A DNA stretch of 64,000 bases from Acidimicrobiaceae bacterium (GTDB taxonomy: Bacteria; Actinomycetota; Acidimicrobiia; Acidimicrobiales; RAAP-2), in NCBI GenBank assembly GCA_003151235.1, contig PLWZ01000071.1, forward strand, positions 71,077 through 135,076. Direction: 5' to 3'. The notes beneath the pieces are model-generated. The model was not told the DNA's origin. It did not search any database and saw only the letters and a list, made by a program, of their open reading frames with translations. This document shows, one piece after another, positions 7,279 through 44,693 of this stretch. The position numbers and the translations under genes were made by a program. Within the stretch, counting starts at the first letter, position 1, and each line of letters begins with the position of its first letter.

Positions 7279-9261
7279 GTGCACGCGCCGGCGGGACTGA
7301 CCCGAATTCAGCGTCGCAACAGAGGAATTTCGATCGTTCCTGCTCTCACCCTGGGCCTGCTCATCGGTGGCATGGCGATCGTTGCCGGCCCGGCGACGCC
7401 GGCGGCCGCCGCAGTCGTTCCGGTCGTCTCGCCGAGTTCGATCGCCGCACTGCCGCTCGACGCGCCCGATCCCGACATCGTTCTCTCCAACGGGACCTTC
7501 TACGCGTTCACGACCGGGAGCAACTGGGGCAATCAGATCGGCATCGCGACGACATCCAACACCGACCCCCAAGTGGGCTGGCACGTGCTGAGCGACCTAC
7601 CCTACGGCTCGAGCGCCTTCCCGGCGGACGGTGACAGCTCTCCACCGGCGGCCTGGGAGGTCAACGACACGCCGACCTCGCCCGGGGTCTTCCAGTGGGC
7701 CGGGCAGTGGATCATGTATTACGACGCGGTAGACGCGTCGAACGGGCGGTACTGCATCTCCGTCGCCACCGCGTCGGTGATCTCCGGCCCGTATAGCGAC
7801 ACCTCTTCGGGGCCGTTGGTCTGCCAGCTCGCGCTCGGCGGTTCCATCGACCCGCAGCCCTTCGTCGACCCGGCGACGGGCGTGCCCTACCTCCTCTGGA
7901 AGAGCAACGACGGTTCGTCCAACTCGCCGTCGACCGTGTGGTCCGAGCCGATCGGAGCCGACGGGGTCAGTCTCACCGGGGCGCCGACGGCCATCTTCAC
8001 GATCGAGCCGGCCCGGTACCCGTGGCAGACGGCGACCGACGATCCGTCGATGGCCTTCGCGGGCGGGAGCTACTACCTCTTCTTCTCGGGCGGGAACTAC
8101 CTGTCGGACTATTACCCGACCGGCTACGTGGTCTGCGGCGGCCCGAGTGGGCCGTGTGATCAGGACGAGGCGTCCGACCCGATCCTCAACACCAACGGGG
8201 GGAGTGGCGGCGGGTCGGTGTTCACCGACGCCGCCGGCAACTGGTGGCTCTCGTATCAGACCTGGGCCTCGCCGAGCTGCACCAACTACGGATGCGAAGG
8301 GCAGCGGTTCATGTACGTCGCCCCGATCTCCCTGCCGCCCTTGGGCGGACCTGCCCCAACGCCCGGACTCCCGGTGCAGCGGATCTTCGGCCAGGACGCG
8401 ATCGCGACATCCGTCGCGATCTCGCAGTCCGAGTTCCCGGCCAACCGCTCGGCGAGCGCGGTCGTCCTCGCCCGCTCCGACTACTTCGCCGACGCCCTGG
8501 CCGGGGGCCCGCTCGCGCACTTGGTCGACGGACCGTTGCTCATCACCCCCGGTGCGGGACTCAGCGCCAGTCTCGACGGGAGGGTGGCCGGTGAGATAGG
8601 TCGCGTCCTGTCGCCCGGTGGGACGGTGTACATCCTCGGTGGCGACCTCGCGCTCAGTCCCACCATCGAGACGGTGCTCCACCAGTATGGGTATCTGACC
8701 CAGCGGATTGCAGGTTCGGATCAGTACGGCACCGCGGTGGCCATCGCCGAGGCCATGGGGAATCCGAGAACGATCTTCGAGGCGACCGGGCTGAGCTTTC
8801 AGGACGCCCTCTCGGCGGTCCCTGCCGCGATCGCAACCAGGGGTGCGATCCTGCTCACCGACGGGAACGTGCAAGCCCCCGAAACGGCTGCATACCTGGC
8901 CGCAAACCCGGGCGACACCCGATACGCCATCGGCGGGACGCTGGCCGCCTTCGGGGCCGATCCAACTGCGAATCCCGTGTTCGGCCAGGACCTCTATTCG
9001 ACATCGGCCGCCGTCGCCGCGACCTTCTTTCCCACCGCGACGACCTTCGGTGCGGCCACCGGCCTCGACTTCCCCGATGCCCTCGGGGGCGGGGTGTTCA
9101 TGGGCACCCCCGGGCACGTCGGGCCGATGCTGCTGGTCGCGCCGACCCTGCCGCTCCCCGCGAGCATCTCGGGGTACCTGTTCAGTGACTCCCAGATGAT
9201 CGACGGCTACGTGTTCGGCGGCTCGCTCGCCGTCGGCGACGACGTCGCCGCGGCCCTGTAG
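7279..9261 (+). CDS. secreted GH43-like protein with three cell-wall-binding (CWB2) repeats
   Basis: A 660-residue exported protein from a GTG start. The signal peptide spans about residues 18-45 (LTLGLLIGGMAIVAGPATP then AAAA). Residues about 55-350 look like a five-bladed beta-propeller glycosidase of the GH43 type (DAPDPDIVLSNGTFYAFTT, DDPSMAFAGGSYYLFFSGG). Residues about 360-660 hold three CWB2 (PF04122) repeats with the signatures RIFGQDAIATSVAIS, RIAGSDQYGTAVAIA and VFGQDLYSTSAAVAA. CWB2 repeats attach proteins non-covalently to the cell wall, so the enzyme is probably displayed on the surface to act on arabinan- or xylan-like polysaccharide (inference). Catalytic acids were not assigned. 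Confidence 0.85.
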   Translation: MHAPAGLTRIQRRNRGISIVPALTLGLLIGGMAIVAGPATPAAAAVVPVVSPSSIAALPLDAPDPDIVLSNGTFYAFTTGSNWGNQIGIATTSNTDPQVGWHVLSDLPYGSSAFPADGDSSPPAAWEVNDTPTSPGVFQWAGQWIMYYDAVDASNGRYCISVATASVISGPYSDTSSGPLVCQLALGGSIDPQPFVDPATGVPYLLWKSNDGSSNSPSTVWSEPIGADGVSLTGAPTAIFTIEPARYPWQTATDDPSMAFAGGSYYLFFSGGNYLSDYYPTGYVVCGGPSGPCDQDEASDPILNTNGGSGGGSVFTDAAGNWWLSYQTWASPSCTNYGCEGQRFMYVAPISLPPLGGPAPTPGLPVQRIFGQDAIATSVAISQSEFPANRSASAVVLARSDYFADALAGGPLAHLVDGPLLITPGAGLSASLDGRVAGEIGRVLSPGGTVYILGGDLALSPTIETVLHQYGYLTQRIAGSDQYGTAVAIAEAMGNPRTIFEATGLSFQDALSAVPAAIATRGAILLTDGNVQAPETAAYLAANPGDTRYAIGGTLAAFGADPTANPVFGQDLYSTSAAVAATFFPTATTFGAATGLDFPDALGGGVFMGTPGHVGPMLLVAPTLPLPASISGYLFSDSQMIDGYVFGGSLAVGDDVAAAL

Positions 9262-35823: not shown

Positions 35824-36774
35824 GTGACGTTCCTGCAGGCGATCGTGATCGGCTTCATCCAGGGGGTCGCCGAGCTCTTCCCGATCTCGAGCCTCGGCCA
35901 CACGGTCATCATCCCGGCCTTCATCGGGGGGTCGTGGGCCCGCCTGGTGACCCAGGAGGCCAGCCGCGAGTCGCCCTACCTCGCGTTCGTGGTCGGCCTC
36001 CATGTGGCCACTGCGCTCGCCCTGATCGCCTACTTCTGGCGGGACTGGGTCCGAATCATCAAGGGTTTCTTCTCGAGCCTGACGAAGCGCCGGGCGGAGA
36101 CCGCCGACGAGCGGGCGGCGTGGTTCGTGATCGTCGCCACGATCCCGGTCGGCATCATTGGCCTCGCCCTCGAGCACCCGCTCCGGACGGTCTTCGCGAA
36201 GCCGCTCGCCGCGGCGACCTTTCTCACGGTGAACGGCCTGATCCTGCTGGGCGGCGAATGGCTCCGGCGCAAGGGGCGAGCCAAGGCCACCGCGCTCGTC
36301 GCAGTGCCGGCCGGTCCGGTGCCGAACGAAGCGACGACCGTCGCTCCACCGGCCCCGCCGGTCGGATCCGAGGATCATGACCCCGAGGTCCTGGCCTCGT
36401 TGCGGCTGCGCGACGCCGTGATCGTCGGGCTGGCCGAGTCGCTCTCGCTCCTGGCCGGCATCAGCCGGGACGGGATCTGCATGGTGACCGGCCTCGTGCG
36501 CGGGTTCAGCTACGAGGACGCAGCCCGGTTCGCCTTCTTGTTGTCGGCCCCGCCGATCCTGCTGGCCGGACTGCTGAAGGTCCCGGACCTGCTGGGCACG
36601 CTCGGCAACGGCATCCGCGGGCAGGTACTCGCCGGCAGCGCGGTCGCGTTCGTCATGGCGCTCATCTCGATCCGGTTCCTGGTCCGCTACTTCCGCAAGA
36701 ACCGACTCACGCCGTTCGCGTTCTACTGCCTCGCCCTGGGCAGCGCCGGCATCGTCTACTTCGCCATCAACTAG
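35824..36774 (+). CDS. uppP: undecaprenyl-diphosphate phosphatase
   Basis: A 316-residue BacA/UppP membrane phosphatase from a GTG start with GGAGGA upstream. It recycles undecaprenyl pyrophosphate to the carrier lipid used in peptidoglycan synthesis. The first catalytic motif is AELFPISSLGHTVIIPA, close to the usual E..PISSTGH. The second is LLAGISRDGICMVTGLVRG, where PGxSRSG is more common, so a Ser is replaced by Asp. A hydrophilic insert of about 50 residues (PAGPVPNEATTVAPPAPPVG) lies between the two halves. Several membrane helices are evident. Confidence 0.9.
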   Translation: MTFLQAIVIGFIQGVAELFPISSLGHTVIIPAFIGGSWARLVTQEASRESPYLAFVVGLHVATALALIAYFWRDWVRIIKGFFSSLTKRRAETADERAAWFVIVATIPVGIIGLALEHPLRTVFAKPLAAATFLTVNGLILLGGEWLRRKGRAKATALVAVPAGPVPNEATTVAPPAPPVGSEDHDPEVLASLRLRDAVIVGLAESLSLLAGISRDGICMVTGLVRGFSYEDAARFAFLLSAPPILLAGLLKVPDLLGTLGNGIRGQVLAGSAVAFVMALISIRFLVRYFRKNRLTPFAFYCLALGSAGIVYFAIN

Positions 36775-40112: not shown

Positions 40113-41147
40113 TCAGCCGTGAGGACGGGCGCGGAACCCGACGAAGGGTTCCGTCGGCACCAGCCGCAGCTCCTCGATCACCTCGTAGCCGGCCCCCGTC
40201 AGATCGCTTCGAAGATCGAGGACGTCGGGGAGCGACGCGGTGCCGGACTGGCAGCGCAACATGAGGTCCAGATGGGCTGCCGCGATCGAGCCGGGAGACG
40301 TCATGGACACCACGAGCAGCTGGCCCGCCGCGGTAAGGCGCGACCGCACCAACCGGTAGAGCTCGCGACGCTGCGCGCGCTCGAAGTAGTAGACGTTGTT
40401 GAGGAGCATGACGAGGTCGAACCGGTGCTTTGAACGGTCGAGCCACTCGAGCATGTCGCCGGCGTGGAGGCGGCCCCGGTCGCCGTGGCCGGTCTTGGCC
40501 AACTCCTCCCGGGCGTCGATGATCACGCTCTCGGCGAGATCCACCCCGTCCACGAGAACGACCGGGTCCGCCTCGAGCACTACCCGGGTGTAGACGCCCG
40601 AACCGCAACCGGCGTCGAGCACTCGAGTCGGGTGCAGCTGAGCGACGGTCCGGCGAACCAGGGAGCTGACGAACGGCGTGGCGGCCAGCGACACCCGGGC
40701 GATGTCGTCGGCATACCGGTCAAGGTCGTCGCGGCCGGTGCCGGCATCGCTTCGCAGGAGCTCGTCCAGCTCGGCATACGGCCCCACCTGGTACTCGAGG
40801 ATGGAGCGGTAGTGCGCGGTGAGGAACTCGTCCCCTCCGGCGAGCGCACGGGCGCGGCGTCCGGACACCCGGTAGCGGTCGTCCCGCCTGCGCAGCTCGC
40901 CGAGCTCGACACCGACCTGGAGCCACGCTCGCAGCCGATCGGGGTTGGAGGCGCCGGTCAGTTCGGCCAGTTCGTCAGCGGAGTGCTCGGTGACGAGATG
41001 TTGAAGCAGCTCGAAGCGGACCGCCGACGAGAGAAACAGCGCGCGGACGAGGCTCCGGCTGTCCAATACCGCCAGGGCCTTGGGTGCGACGCGGCCCTGG
41101 CGGACCGTGTCTGCGACCCCGCTCAGGGCGTCACGCCAACTGGTCAT
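40113..41147 (-). CDS. SAM-dependent methyltransferase with winged-helix dimerisation domain
   Basis: A 344-residue enzyme. Residues about 30-110 form a winged-helix dimerisation region (LFLSSAVRFELLQHLVTEHS, ADELAELTGASNPDRLRAW). The methyltransferase domain has motif I RVLDAGCGSGVYTRVVLEAD near residue 178, an acidic residue in VDGVDLAESVIID, and motif IV FDLVMLLNNVYYFERAQRRE. This layout is typical of O-methyltransferases of natural-product pathways. The start overlaps the stop of the ferritin-like/DUF362 fusion gene (ATGA), so the two are made together. Confidence 0.85.
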   Translation of the reverse strand: MTSWRDALSGVADTVRQGRVAPKALAVLDSRSLVRALFLSSAVRFELLQHLVTEHSADELAELTGASNPDRLRAWLQVGVELGELRRRDDRYRVSGRRARALAGGDEFLTAHYRSILEYQVGPYAELDELLRSDAGTGRDDLDRYADDIARVSLAATPFVSSLVRRTVAQLHPTRVLDAGCGSGVYTRVVLEADPVVLVDGVDLAESVIIDAREELAKTGHGDRGRLHAGDMLEWLDRSKHRFDLVMLLNNVYYFERAQRRELYRLVRSRLTAAGQLLVVSMTSPGSIAAAHLDLMLRCQSGTASLPDVLDLRSDLTGAGYEVIEELRLVPTEPFVGFRARPHG

Positions 41148-43135
41148 GGCCGAACGACGTGCGAACCGGCGTCCGGGGTGGACGCCGGTGCCCGAATGCC
41201 GAAGACGCGCTGGGTCGCGCGCTGGAACGACCGGAGTGCGGGTCCGATCGGGCGCAACGGGGGGAACGCGGAGATGTCGAGTGCGGGGACGAAGACGCGT
41301 CCCGCACCGCTGAAGTACACGTAGACGGGGTCCGACAAGAGGCCAAGCGCCCGGATCGGGAGGGACGCATGAGCGCCCCGGAGCTGGTGGCCGAGATCCG
41401 GTCGGCGACCGTCGACCTCGACCGTTGCCGGGGCCAGGCCGAACCAGTGGTGGGCCAGGCGCACAATGGGGGCGCGACGGGGATCTCCGACCCCGAGATC
41501 ACCGAGTACCACCTCGTCGACGGACAGGGCGTCGGCGCCTGCGTACACGACCCGAACGTCGGCCGGGCGGTCGCAGCCCATGACGCCGAACGGTCCGTCG
41601 GCCACCGGCGCCCAGCCGTCGATGACCGAGAAGTCGGGCGGGGCCACGTCGAGCAGCATCATGGTCGCCGACCGGTAGTCGATGCTGCGCCCTGCATACA
41701 CGGTGTAGTCGATCCGCCCGTTGCCGCCTTCGAGCGTGTTCATGCTCAGATGTGCGAAGTCGGTGGGCGCCGTTCTGAGCTTGGGCATCACGATGCGCAG
41801 TTCGGCATCCAGCCACGACCCGCTGATGGCGCGCTGGACGAAGCCCCGGTCATAGGTGAACGGCCGCAGGTCCTGGCTGATGTCGACGATCCGGTACTCC
41901 GGCGAGTCGAACCCGAAATACGCGGCCACCTCGGCGACCGACCGGTGCGCGTAATGGTTGCCGTAGACGGTCGGTGCCTCGAGAACCGCCACGTCGCTCA
42001 CTCCCTTTTTGCGGAGGTACCGGGCCAGCAACTCCACCAACTCGGGGTCGTTCACGTTGGATCGGTCTCGACGGTCGTACCCGAGCATGAAGGAGGCCCG
42101 GATGGCCACCGACTCCACCCCGGCCGCCCGCTCACCGAGCCCGGCCCGATCGAGGCAGTCCACGAGCACGGACTCCTTGTCGGCCTTGTCGCGCCCGTCA
42201 CCGACCGCCACTCGCTGGCGCGACCCGAACGAGCGGGGTCGGAGATCCGCCGGCCCCTGCGGGTGCGTCGCGTCGGTTTGCGCGATGGCCGGGCGGAGGC
42301 CGGCCGGAACGAACCACACGCTGACGGCGGCCAGTTCGGCGACCAGGCGGTCGAGGGACCCCGGGTCGCTCAGTCGATCGTCCTCGGTGAGGGCGGCCGC
42401 GAGCAGCCGGAAGGCATCGATGTGCCGGGCCTCGTCCTCGCGGATGCGATCGATGGTCTGCCGCTGCACCGGGTCATCCGAGAGCTCCACCAGGCGTCGG
42501 TAGGCCAGTTCGGCGCTCGCCTCCAAGGCGACGTTGAGTTCGCAGTACCGGTGGAACGTCTGGTAACGGAGCTCATCGCGCAGAACAGGGGGAACCTGGC
42601 CGGTGAGGCCGGCCACGGCAACCAGGACCCCGGCGGCACCGGTTCGAAACGGTGTGGTGCGCGAATCGCTGAGGTTGGCCGTCGCCGACGTCCAACCGGA
42701 GAGCGCTCCTTGGAGCTGGCGCCCGTAGACGACCACCTTCGACATGAGGCCCGGGGCTCGGAGAAGCTCGCCTCGGAGATACTCGGCGTGCAGCTGCTCG
42801 TCCTTCCAGATCCAGATCAGGGTCTGGCGGAGCAGGTCTCGGGCGTCATGGCCGATGTCGAGTGCAGCGACCCGCCCCGCAACGGCCTCCTCCCGGTAGG
42901 CCACCGCCACGATCTGCTCGCGCTCGAGCGCCAGCAGTAAGAGCCGCTGGCGCTCCTTGTCGGGCCTGCCGACACATTCGGATCGCCACCGATCGAGCTG
43001 AACCGTCACGTCTTCTAGGAGCAGCCGCTCGAGCTCCTTGGCGTCGGGACGGGCATCGACGCCCGGCGAGGGTGGGGAGCTCCAGGCGCTCACCGCTTTG
43101 CCGCCCGTTGGATCGGCTTTCCCGCGATGGCACAT
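41144..43135 (-). CDS. ferritin-like/DUF362 fusion protein
   Basis: A 663-residue protein with an unusual domain order. The N-terminal half (about residues 30-300) has the ferritin-like diiron pattern: LLALEREQIVAVAYREE, TLIWIWKDEQLHAEYLRGEL (ExxH), ELNVALEASAELAYRRL and RIREDEARHIDAFRLLAAAL (ExxH). The C-terminal half (about 310-545) is DUF362-like: SVAIRASFMLGYDRRDRSNV, LRKKGVSDVAVLEAPTVYGN, LRIVMPKLRTAPTDFAHLSM and DWAPVADGPFG-like DGWAPVADGPFGVMGCD. No 4Fe-4S ferredoxin motif is present. GTG 43093 is an alternative start. Function unknown. Confidence 0.75.
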   Translation of the reverse strand: MCHRGKADPTGGKAVSAWSSPPSPGVDARPDAKELERLLLEDVTVQLDRWRSECVGRPDKERQRLLLLALEREQIVAVAYREEAVAGRVAALDIGHDARDLLRQTLIWIWKDEQLHAEYLRGELLRAPGLMSKVVVYGRQLQGALSGWTSATANLSDSRTTPFRTGAAGVLVAVAGLTGQVPPVLRDELRYQTFHRYCELNVALEASAELAYRRLVELSDDPVQRQTIDRIREDEARHIDAFRLLAAALTEDDRLSDPGSLDRLVAELAAVSVWFVPAGLRPAIAQTDATHPQGPADLRPRSFGSRQRVAVGDGRDKADKESVLVDCLDRAGLGERAAGVESVAIRASFMLGYDRRDRSNVNDPELVELLARYLRKKGVSDVAVLEAPTVYGNHYAHRSVAEVAAYFGFDSPEYRIVDISQDLRPFTYDRGFVQRAISGSWLDAELRIVMPKLRTAPTDFAHLSMNTLEGGNGRIDYTVYAGRSIDYRSATMMLLDVAPPDFSVIDGWAPVADGPFGVMGCDRPADVRVVYAGADALSVDEVVLGDLGVGDPRRAPIVRLAHHWFGLAPATVEVDGRRPDLGHQLRGAHASLPIRALGLLSDPVYVYFSGAGRVFVPALDISAFPPLRPIGPALRSFQRATQRVFGIRAPASTPDAGSHVVRP

Positions 43136-43260
43136 CGTTCCGGGCGATCCAAGTTCACGCCTAGATCATGGCTCGCGGGACGGGTGAGCTCACGGGAGAG
43201 ATCCGGGCTTTGGGCGGCGAGACGTTCGCCGCCGTCCGCCAAGGGTGCGCGTTCTCTCGG

Positions 43261-43333
43261 TCGGGGAGGGGGGACTCGAACCCCCGACCTCCTGCCCCCA
43301 AAGCAGGCGCGCTACCTACTGCGCCACTCCCCG
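43261..43333 (-). tRNA. tRNA-Pro (TGG)
   Basis: Cloverleaf on the minus strand: acceptor CGGGGAG/CTCCCCG, anticodon stem CCTGC/GCAGG with loop TTTGGGG giving anticodon TGG, T-arm GGGGGTTCGAGTCCCCC, discriminator A. No 3' CCA is encoded. It lies between the ferritin-like/DUF362 gene and the DUF5679 gene, with 125 to 195 bases of non-coding sequence on each side. Confidence 0.95.
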
Positions 43334-43685: not shown

Positions 43686-43871
43686 GCGACTCCTCCTCGT
43701 CTTCCAGTCTCCTCGTGGCCCGGGTAACCCAGGCCTGAGACGCGATGAACCTAACCGTGCCTGGCCGCATGCGGGGGGACCCTGGTGAGTGGAATGACAT
43801 AAAAAACATTGGAAGGCCCCCAGTTGATCCCCGCAGGACGGCGAGAAACCGCAGGTCCTACCATCAACACC

Positions 43872-44693
43872 GTGCCTGAACGACCACCCGAACCGATCAT
43901 CGCCACGCTGGGGGAGACCTGGTCCGCGACGGCCCAGGCGTGCGAGGGCTTGCATCCCGATGCTTGGGACCTGCCCACCGACTGTCCCGGCTGGACCGTT
44001 CGTGACCAGCTCTCGCACTTGATCGGAACCGAGCTCGGCTTGCTCGGTCGTGCCGCACCGGCCGTGCCCGACCCGATGCCCGACTACGTGCGCAATTCGC
44101 TCGGTCAGCTGAACGAGGCATGGATCGAAGAGCGCCGTGGAGTGCCTGGCATCGAGGTGTTGGCCGAGTTCGTCGACGTGACGAACCGCCGCCTAGTTGA
44201 GCTCGCCGGGTTCCCGCCCGAACGGTGGGACGTGCTCGGTTGGAGCCCTGGAGGCGAAGCCCCATACCGGGAGTTCATGCAGATCCGGGAGTTCGACTGC
44301 TGGATCCACGGCCAGGACATTCGCCGGGCCGTGGACCGACCCGGCGAGCGGGGAGGCATCGGCGAGAAGATCGCGCTCGAGCGGGTGGCCATGGGGATGT
44401 CCTATGTCGTCGGCCGCAAGGTGGCGCCACCCGACGCAACCATTGTGGTGTTCGACCTCGGGGGGTCACCCACGCACACGGTGACGGTCCAAATGAACGG
44501 GAAACGCGCCGAGGGGCGCGAGGACGCGCCGACCAGCCCGACGGTCCGGATCGTTATGGCACCCGAGCACTTCATCAGGCTCGGGTGCGGCCGGGAGGAT
44601 CCGGAGGCTGCTCTCGGATCCGGTGAGCTGGCGTTCGATGGCGATCAAGCGCTCGGCATCTCGGTGGTGCAGGCGATGGACTTCATGATCTGA
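43872..44693 (+). CDS. mycothiol-dependent maleylpyruvate isomerase family protein
   Basis: About 273 residues from the GTG at 43872. The N-terminal DinB-like metal-binding domain shows DLPTDCPGWTVRDQLSHLIG with its first His ligand and FMQIREFDCWIHGQDIRRAV with the second. The C-terminal 80 residues (VAMGMSYVVGRKVAPPDATI, then RIVMAPEHFIRLGCGREDP) match the MDMPI C-terminal domain. This is the two-domain form of the family, longer than the single-domain member at 20209-20754. The substrate is unknown; the reaction would use mycothiol as cofactor if it is like its characterised relatives. Confidence 0.88.
   Translation: MPERPPEPIIATLGETWSATAQACEGLHPDAWDLPTDCPGWTVRDQLSHLIGTELGLLGRAAPAVPDPMPDYVRNSLGQLNEAWIEERRGVPGIEVLAEFVDVTNRRLVELAGFPPERWDVLGWSPGGEAPYREFMQIREFDCWIHGQDIRRAVDRPGERGGIGEKIALERVAMGMSYVVGRKVAPPDATIVVFDLGGSPTHTVTVQMNGKRAEGREDAPTSPTVRIVMAPEHFIRLGCGREDPEAALGSGELAFDGDQALGISVVQAMDFMI

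Follow-up and report, generated by a model that had tools for sequence, protein, structure and literature searches.

What might a protein do in which a ferritin-like domain is joined to a DUF362 domain, and does the overlap between its gene and a methyltransferase gene matter? The question is raised by a locus of an Acidimicrobiaceae bacterium (assembly GCA_003151235.1, contig PLWZ01000071.1) within the 64,000-nucleotide stretch analyzed here (the window), where a 663-residue fusion and a 344-residue methyltransferase are encoded one after the other on the minus strand. The fusion family retains a full set of candidate di-metal ligands, has lost a histidine and a lysine that are common among DUF362 proteins, and is followed by the methyltransferase gene in one clade and by other enzyme genes in some divergent loci. 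We consider it about 45% probable that the fusion is a diiron oxidase or oxygenase acting on a small molecule, and that its product is methylated by the translationally coupled methyltransferase.

The two halves of the fusion

The fusion and its ferritin-like half comprise the following features:

41144..43135, minus strand: 663-residue fusion of a ferritin-like domain and a DUF362 (LarA-fold) domain, from its open reading frame (ORF), ratio of nonsynonymous to synonymous substitution (dN/dS) and homologues
42281..43036, minus strand: ferritin-like half, residues ~34-285
41186..42229, minus strand: DUF362 half (residues ~303-650), for which a LarA fold is predicted
42917..42919, minus strand: E73, candidate metal ligand in the first bundle helix (58-79); E in 198/201 homologues, gap in 3/201
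42788..42799, minus strand: E113-x-x-H116, the first ExxH; E and H each in 199/201, gap in 2/201
42521..42523, minus strand: E205, candidate metal ligand in the third bundle helix; 201/201
42422..42436, minus strand: D234-E235-x-R237-H238, the second ExxH, of DExRH type; E and H in 201/201
41144..41147, minus strand: ATGA overlap of the fusion stop and the methyltransferase start, read from the sequence

The four bases ATGA at 41144-41147 are common to the fusion ORF and the methyltransferase ORF, exactly as in the original prediction. Compared with its counterpart at a relative's locus (L002; record PMOQ01000067.1, Acidimicrobiaceae bacterium isolate palsa_461), the fusion is 95% identical with a dN/dS of 0.18, and the methyltransferase has a dN/dS of 0.19 against its own counterpart there; since both are under purifying selection in this comparison, both ORFs look like real genes. 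The NCBIfam profiles hold no family for the fusion, and scans of the locus for promoters and terminators found nothing.

According to structure prediction, the N-terminal half forms a ferritin-like bundle (predicted local distance difference test score, 87), as had been proposed from the two ExxH motifs of the 663-residue protein, E113-x-x-H116 and E235-x-x-H238, both of which are present. The candidate di-metal ligands are E73, E113, H116, E205, E235, and H238, and in the model they are distributed over four helices, so that a four-helix bundle with the four glutamates and two histidines of ferritin-like diiron proteins is predicted. All six are intact in 198 of the 201 homologues of at least 560 amino acids, and the remaining three have alignment gaps (of 309 fetched proteins, 120 shorter ones were excluded here, and reading frames from loci that ran too long were trimmed to their last 680 residues). 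The DExRH motif is also well kept (D in 200/201, R in 194/201), and the same motif is given for the diiron monooxygenase ChlA (PMC4500134). Structural matches of the model include bacterioferritin-type bundles at 2.4-4.1 Å. The Pfam ferritin families stay below threshold for the window's fusion (Mn_catalase E 1.7e-3, Ferritin_2 E 0.22), and Rubrerythrin (PF02915) did not reach its curated cut-off and was not listed for it at E up to 1. Among 12 members of the fusion family, Ferritin_2 matches 9 and Rubrerythrin 8 (E up to 0.1; best Rubrerythrin 1.8e-4), and precomputed annotation lists Rubrerythrin in 4 of 101 relatives. Despite the sub-threshold Pfam matches, the ferritin-like assignment is supported by the predicted fold together with the conservation of the ligands. 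Bundle helices two and three are separated by about 67 residues (127-193), which include an invariant G143 and an invariant G147-W148; a LEREQ stretch is near-invariant in the family, and the fusion sequence contains no rubredoxin-type CxxC pair.

The C-terminal half matches DUF362 (PF04015, clan CL0471), a domain of unknown function by its Pfam name, at residues 343-543 (E 6e-7; 30.1 bits against a cut-off of 24). DUF362 is found in 12 of 12 C-terminal halves of family members (E up to 0.01), and a LarA (lactate racemase) fold is predicted for this half. One further feature is needed here:

41726..41788, minus strand: residues 450-470, counterpart of the PKxKTH..KN motif in ungapped alignments, with the His (456) and the Lys (466) lost and an invariant H462 new

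The original prediction had singled out the lack of a 4Fe-4S motif in the DUF362-like half. The fusion sequence indeed has no CxxCxxCxxxC motif, which a regular expression finds in 28 of the 30 top-scoring actinobacterial DUF362 members, but the more telling loss is that of the common histidine and lysine. The K-x-H..KN motif that holds them occurs in 23 of the same 30 by regular expression; at its positions, the fusion family has His in 1/201 sequences and Lys in 0/201. We take these positions to be those of the catalytic histidine and the cofactor-tethering lysine of LarA. In LarA, the lysine tethers the nickel-pincer cofactor by a thioamide link and the histidine is catalytic (PMC12611868). 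Because both residues are lost at the presumed LarA-equivalent positions, use of a nickel-pincer cofactor by the fusion appears unlikely, and the C-terminal half is, as judged from sequence, a divergent branch of Pfam DUF362 and not a typical member.

HHalign aligned the C-terminal half only with a canonical DUF362 alignment of 13 proteins (12 of 30 loci plus L047), which were picked among carriers of K-x-H..KN, the invariance of that motif within the alignment being a result of this selection. No useful alignment was obtained with the LarA homologues of the same genomes (probability 4.5) or with a single canonical DUF362 (probability 1.2), and a PDB sequence search with the C-terminal half gave no match at E up to 10. 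With canonical DUF362 as the query, the best 60 of 288 PDB matches fall on that end of the profile where the 4Fe-4S motifs lie. A 741-residue DUF362 protein in which no ferritin-like match was found is encoded in another lineage of the phylum (G869; L060:1270-3495); it also lacks the common K-x-H..KN residues, has a long C-terminal part without assignment, and is perhaps a near free-standing relative of the fusion's C-terminal half.

The partner gene and its distribution

The methyltransferase comprises the following features:

40113..41147, minus strand: 344-residue winged-helix S-adenosylmethionine (SAM) methyltransferase (Methyltransf_25 E 6.8e-12, Methyltransf_2 E 2.8e-5)
40596..40616, minus strand: SAM-binding loop DAGCGSG, from an alignment of five homologues
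40383..40400, minus strand: NNVYYF, with a Tyr at the position of the His in VLHDW of 5i2h

The protein had been described as O-methyltransferase-type. It does combine a winged-helix N-terminus (by eye) with a class I SAM domain, and it reaches the SAM-domain profile of O-methyltransferase family 2 (PF00891; 24.0 bits against 22.3), but it has a tyrosine in place of the histidine of the VLHDW motif, which we take to be catalytic in that family. In the best solved relative by sequence, the family 2 protein 5i2h, H-D-W lies opposite Y-Y-F of the methyltransferase; the tyrosine faces the histidine of both 5i2h and 2r3s, so the histidine expected for PF00891 is missing, and both tyrosines of NNVYYF are present in 5 of 5 aligned homologues. 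As a tyrosine replaces the catalytic histidine of the O-methyltransferase relative, O-methylation is a guess, and N- or C-methylation is equally possible. Among the best 25 of 41 NCBIfam rows for this protein, no cut-off was reached.

In all four close loci with sufficient contig, the methyltransferase gene directly follows the fusion (the window, L002, L004, apparently of genome G060, and L031 of G064; L003 terminates inside the fusion). The two genes overlap by 4 bp (ATGA) in two of these loci and by 1 bp (TGATG) in the other two, and the overlap persists down to ~55% methyltransferase identity. Ten divergent loci, whose fusions match over nearly the full length at 30-49% identity (L021-L029 and L033, of which L024, L028, and L033 are short stretches), lack the methyltransferase within the fetched DNA. 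A genome-wide search of 14 fusion genomes, one of which (G556) has the fusion in pieces, found the methyltransferase at 55% identity or more only in the window's genome (G000), G060, and G064. A 38% homologue lies on another contig of G443; of the remaining ten genomes, four have no match and six have short SAM-domain matches only, and a homologue above 38% is thus missing from 11 of 14. An oxidase-methyltransferase pair, as originally proposed, is compatible with the coupling in the four close loci, with the oxidase activity itself being presumed, but it is no general rule (0/10 divergent loci), and fusion and methyltransferase do not always co-occur. The methyltransferase as an obligate partner was rejected, being absent from the ten divergent loci and, above 38% identity, from most fusion genomes.

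Other genes stand next to the fusion in some of the divergent loci. In L029, the fusion overlaps by ATGA a gene for a flavin adenine dinucleotide (FAD) enzyme, which among NCBIfam models matches that for phytoene desaturases best, though below its cut-off, and in L028, the gene of an MDMPI_N-SCP2 protein overlaps the fusion by ATGA (4 bp). A GST-domain protein gene follows the fusion by 32 nt in L026, an acyl-CoA ligase gene by 31 nt in L025, where the fusion itself lies after a CobS gene, and biotin/carboxyl-transferase-type homologues by 55 and 272 nt in L023 and L022, respectively (the L022 protein was scanned); these distances depend on mechanically chosen gene starts. For L021, L024, and L027, no nearby gene on the same strand could be named as a partner. 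Just upstream of the fusion in L021 (5637-7238; genome G440) lies the gene of a 533-residue protein with a glycine-rich GGGIGS stretch, which is matched by no model of Pfam or NCBIfam (E up to 1e-3).

Within the genomes sampled, a single clade has the methyltransferase as partner. A tree with 27 rows includes three of the methyltransferase-bearing loci (window, L004, and L031); these group together, apart from the other labelled loci, with 100/100 support, and they sit on both sides of the deepest split of the crown clade (93/88 and 93/87, not starred). L002 and L033 are absent from the tree, the latter because of one stop within the matched stretch, and L029 has a very long branch whose placement is unsure. 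Given this clade-limited distribution and the other enzyme genes found in the same slot, the slot appears swappable and the pairing not universal. As clades differ in the partner gene, the fusion probably provides the constant step, with its partner as a variable tailoring step.

A protein search returned 336 matches to the fusion at E up to 1e-3. By length (589-707 amino acids), the best 120 of these are full or near-full fusions, with 64-99% identity. Where a name is given, most relatives are Acidimicrobiia or unassigned Actinomycetota, but P0276 (615 amino acids, 65% in the C-terminal half) and P0131 carry the label Streptosporangiaceae, and P0153 the label Trebonia; these three may reflect transfer of the family beyond Acidimicrobiia or mislabelled metagenome bins. 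In genome searches, whose first-look filters may overlook some fusions, a sample of 396 genomes of the phylum had the fusion only in the window's own genome, with a DUF362-only match in G869. The class sample gave 3 real fusion matches in 296 genomes, a fourth match spanning 41 residues. In the order sample, 12 of 397 genomes matched, ten near full length, one in pieces, and one weakly. G162 and G161 matched 41 and 69 positions only and were not counted as fusions. The fusion occurs in 7 of 19 genomes of the family of G311, one of these in pieces, and in 2 of 12 of the family of G060.

Several incomplete copies were noted. In G556 (L030 ~7774-8537), the matching pieces cover residues 58-225 and 553-654 but nothing in between, likely a decayed or deleted copy. 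P0189 and P0283 are ferritin-half and DUF362-half fragments from contigs of 2189169 bases both, and so are P0199 and P0291 from contigs of 751223 bases both; each pair looks like a frameshift-split copy of one fusion gene. Several ferritin-only matches among the relatives likewise resemble fragments or frameshift splits.

The surroundings of the fusion in the window include a tRNA-Pro gene (43259-43333) and, as identified by eye among the ORFs, tig, clpP, and clpX, which together give the locus housekeeping surroundings. Past the tRNA-Pro gene and divergent from the fusion lies an MDMPI_N/SCP2-type gene (43809-44693), which is not the MDMPI_N-SCP2 gene that overlaps the fusion stop in L028. 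Within ~4.5 kb of the fusion there is an UppP-like gene (undecaprenyl-diphosphatase, by eye), homologous across four loci, two of them of the divergent family f72, possibly a trace of old synteny:

35824-36774 of the window: UppP-like gene (by eye), with counterparts at L022:483-1367, L023:3287-4168, and L002:10962-11789

Proposed function and competing explanations

In the favored reading, the ferritin-like half would catalyze an O2-dependent diiron oxidation or oxygenation of a small molecule, with iron as the presumed metal and O2 as the presumed species activated. The LarA-fold half would bind or position the substrate without a nickel-pincer cofactor, perhaps through the conserved H462, E386, Y353, and R447, and the partner gene product would act on the same molecule as a clade-specific second step. 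By analogy with COQ7 and then COQ3 in ubiquinone synthesis, the order would be to oxidize and then to decorate. No substrate is proposed, because the neighboring genes do not converge on one pathway.

The main rival to an oxidase would be a peroxidase or iron-handling module of rubrerythrin or bacterioferritin type that serves a reaction of the DUF362 half, with no organic substrate being oxidized. The best structural matches, small ferritin-like proteins and bacterioferritins, are what such a module would be expected to give, and Ferritin_2 (9/12) and Rubrerythrin (8/12; precomputed 4/101) are the commonest Pfam matches. However, the second motif is DExRH, the rubredoxin-type CxxC pair is lacking, some of the partners are metabolite-tailoring enzymes, and the near-invariant LEREQ and invariant G143 and G147-W148 would be unexpected for storage, which together make this explanation doubtful. 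Nor does it seem likely that the fusion and the methyltransferase share an operon only, with the methyltransferase acting elsewhere and the pairing lacking functional meaning: the change of partner between clades and the 11 of 14 fusion genomes with no homologue above 38% identity would agree with this, but all four testable loci keep the overlap, with methyltransferase identity as low as ~55%, and the three methyltransferase-bearing loci on the tree are one group (100/100).

Action of both halves on a macromolecule or cofactor, such as modification of tRNA, protein, or tetrapyrrole in place of a secondary metabolite, would suit the housekeeping neighbors in the window (tRNA-Pro; tig, clpP, and clpX by eye) and the CobS gene that precedes the divergent fusion in L025, yet we judge it improbable given the patchy spread of the fusion (12/397 order-sample genomes, 10 near full length), which is unlike that of a housekeeping function. 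Least probable is that the DUF362 half contains a functional, LarA-like nickel-pincer redox site that the diiron half feeds or protects. The LarA fold would allow it, and of 12 fusion genomes, 10 have LarC and 9 have Lar_N; against it, the lysine position holds Lys in 0/201 and the histidine position His in 1/201 sequences, G060 and G064 (completeness 94% and 98%) carry the fusion while neither LarC nor Lar_N was found in them, and a separate LarA homologue can account for the machinery where Lar_N is present. Such homologues were read in 8 of the 9 Lar_N-bearing fusion genomes, and all eight show either GGHK or GGWK. In the window's genome, where LarC is on contig C41, the separate LarA homologue (Lar_N; L043, contig C20 of G000) has an Asn-Ile-Ser..GGHK stretch and a single-histidine look, and its gene begins within the end of a long ORF lying upstream (from L043:146) that is dehydrogenase-like by eye.

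Relation to known systems and implications

The likeness of the fusion to DUF362 (PF04015) is a significant Pfam and HHalign match across most of the C-terminal half, whereas the absent 4Fe-4S motif, the replaced His and Lys, and the fused ferritin-like half set it apart. Members of the LarA superfamily (DUF2088/Lar_N) align with the C-terminal half at 10-16% identity, and the fusion lacks their cofactor lysine and catalytic histidine at presumed positions reached via the DUF362 alignment. With bacterioferritin, mini-bacterioferritin, TM1526, and alternative oxidase, the fusion shares a predicted four-helix bundle bearing E, ExxH, E, ExxH, but it differs from ferritin-like diiron proteins by the ~67-residue segment (127-193) and the fused LarA-fold half. 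COQ3 is the methyltransferase step after COQ7 in ubiquinone synthesis, and BchM is the methyltransferase partner of ChlA/AcsF. COQ7 is a di-iron hydroxylase (PMC9774615). The COQ7-COQ3 and ChlA/AcsF-BchM pairs resemble the present locus in that a proposed diiron oxidation stands beside SAM methylation, but their architecture differs, no sequence evidence points to the same substrates, and the BchM model matches the methyltransferase in the SAM core only, far below cut-off.

In the literature searched, no report combines DUF362 with ferritin, the DUF362 literature found describes no such fusion in its titles and opening abstracts, and no such fusion was among the matches listed for ferritin-like diiron proteins in Acidimicrobiia. 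The database name of P0289, 'rubrerythrin/uncharacterized protein (DUF362 family)', shows that automatic annotation has already met the architecture.

The fusion is kept at 64-99% identity in the best 120 of 336 relatives despite the loss of His and Lys, and a DUF362 branch that lacks these common residues and has intact di-metal ligands offers a testable handle on the abilities that the fold retains when they are missing. If the oxidation is real, it would add a diiron enzyme architecture, and the changing partners would show the reuse of one oxidation step. More tentatively, and with some doubt on our part, the fusion may found a new modular tailoring family, in which a diiron oxygenase would act on a substrate held in a nickel-stripped LarA fold next to a swappable, coupled partner slot (methyltransferase, FAD desaturase, or MDMPI/SCP2-type). 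If so, one conserved oxidation step would feed different decorations in different actinobacterial lineages.

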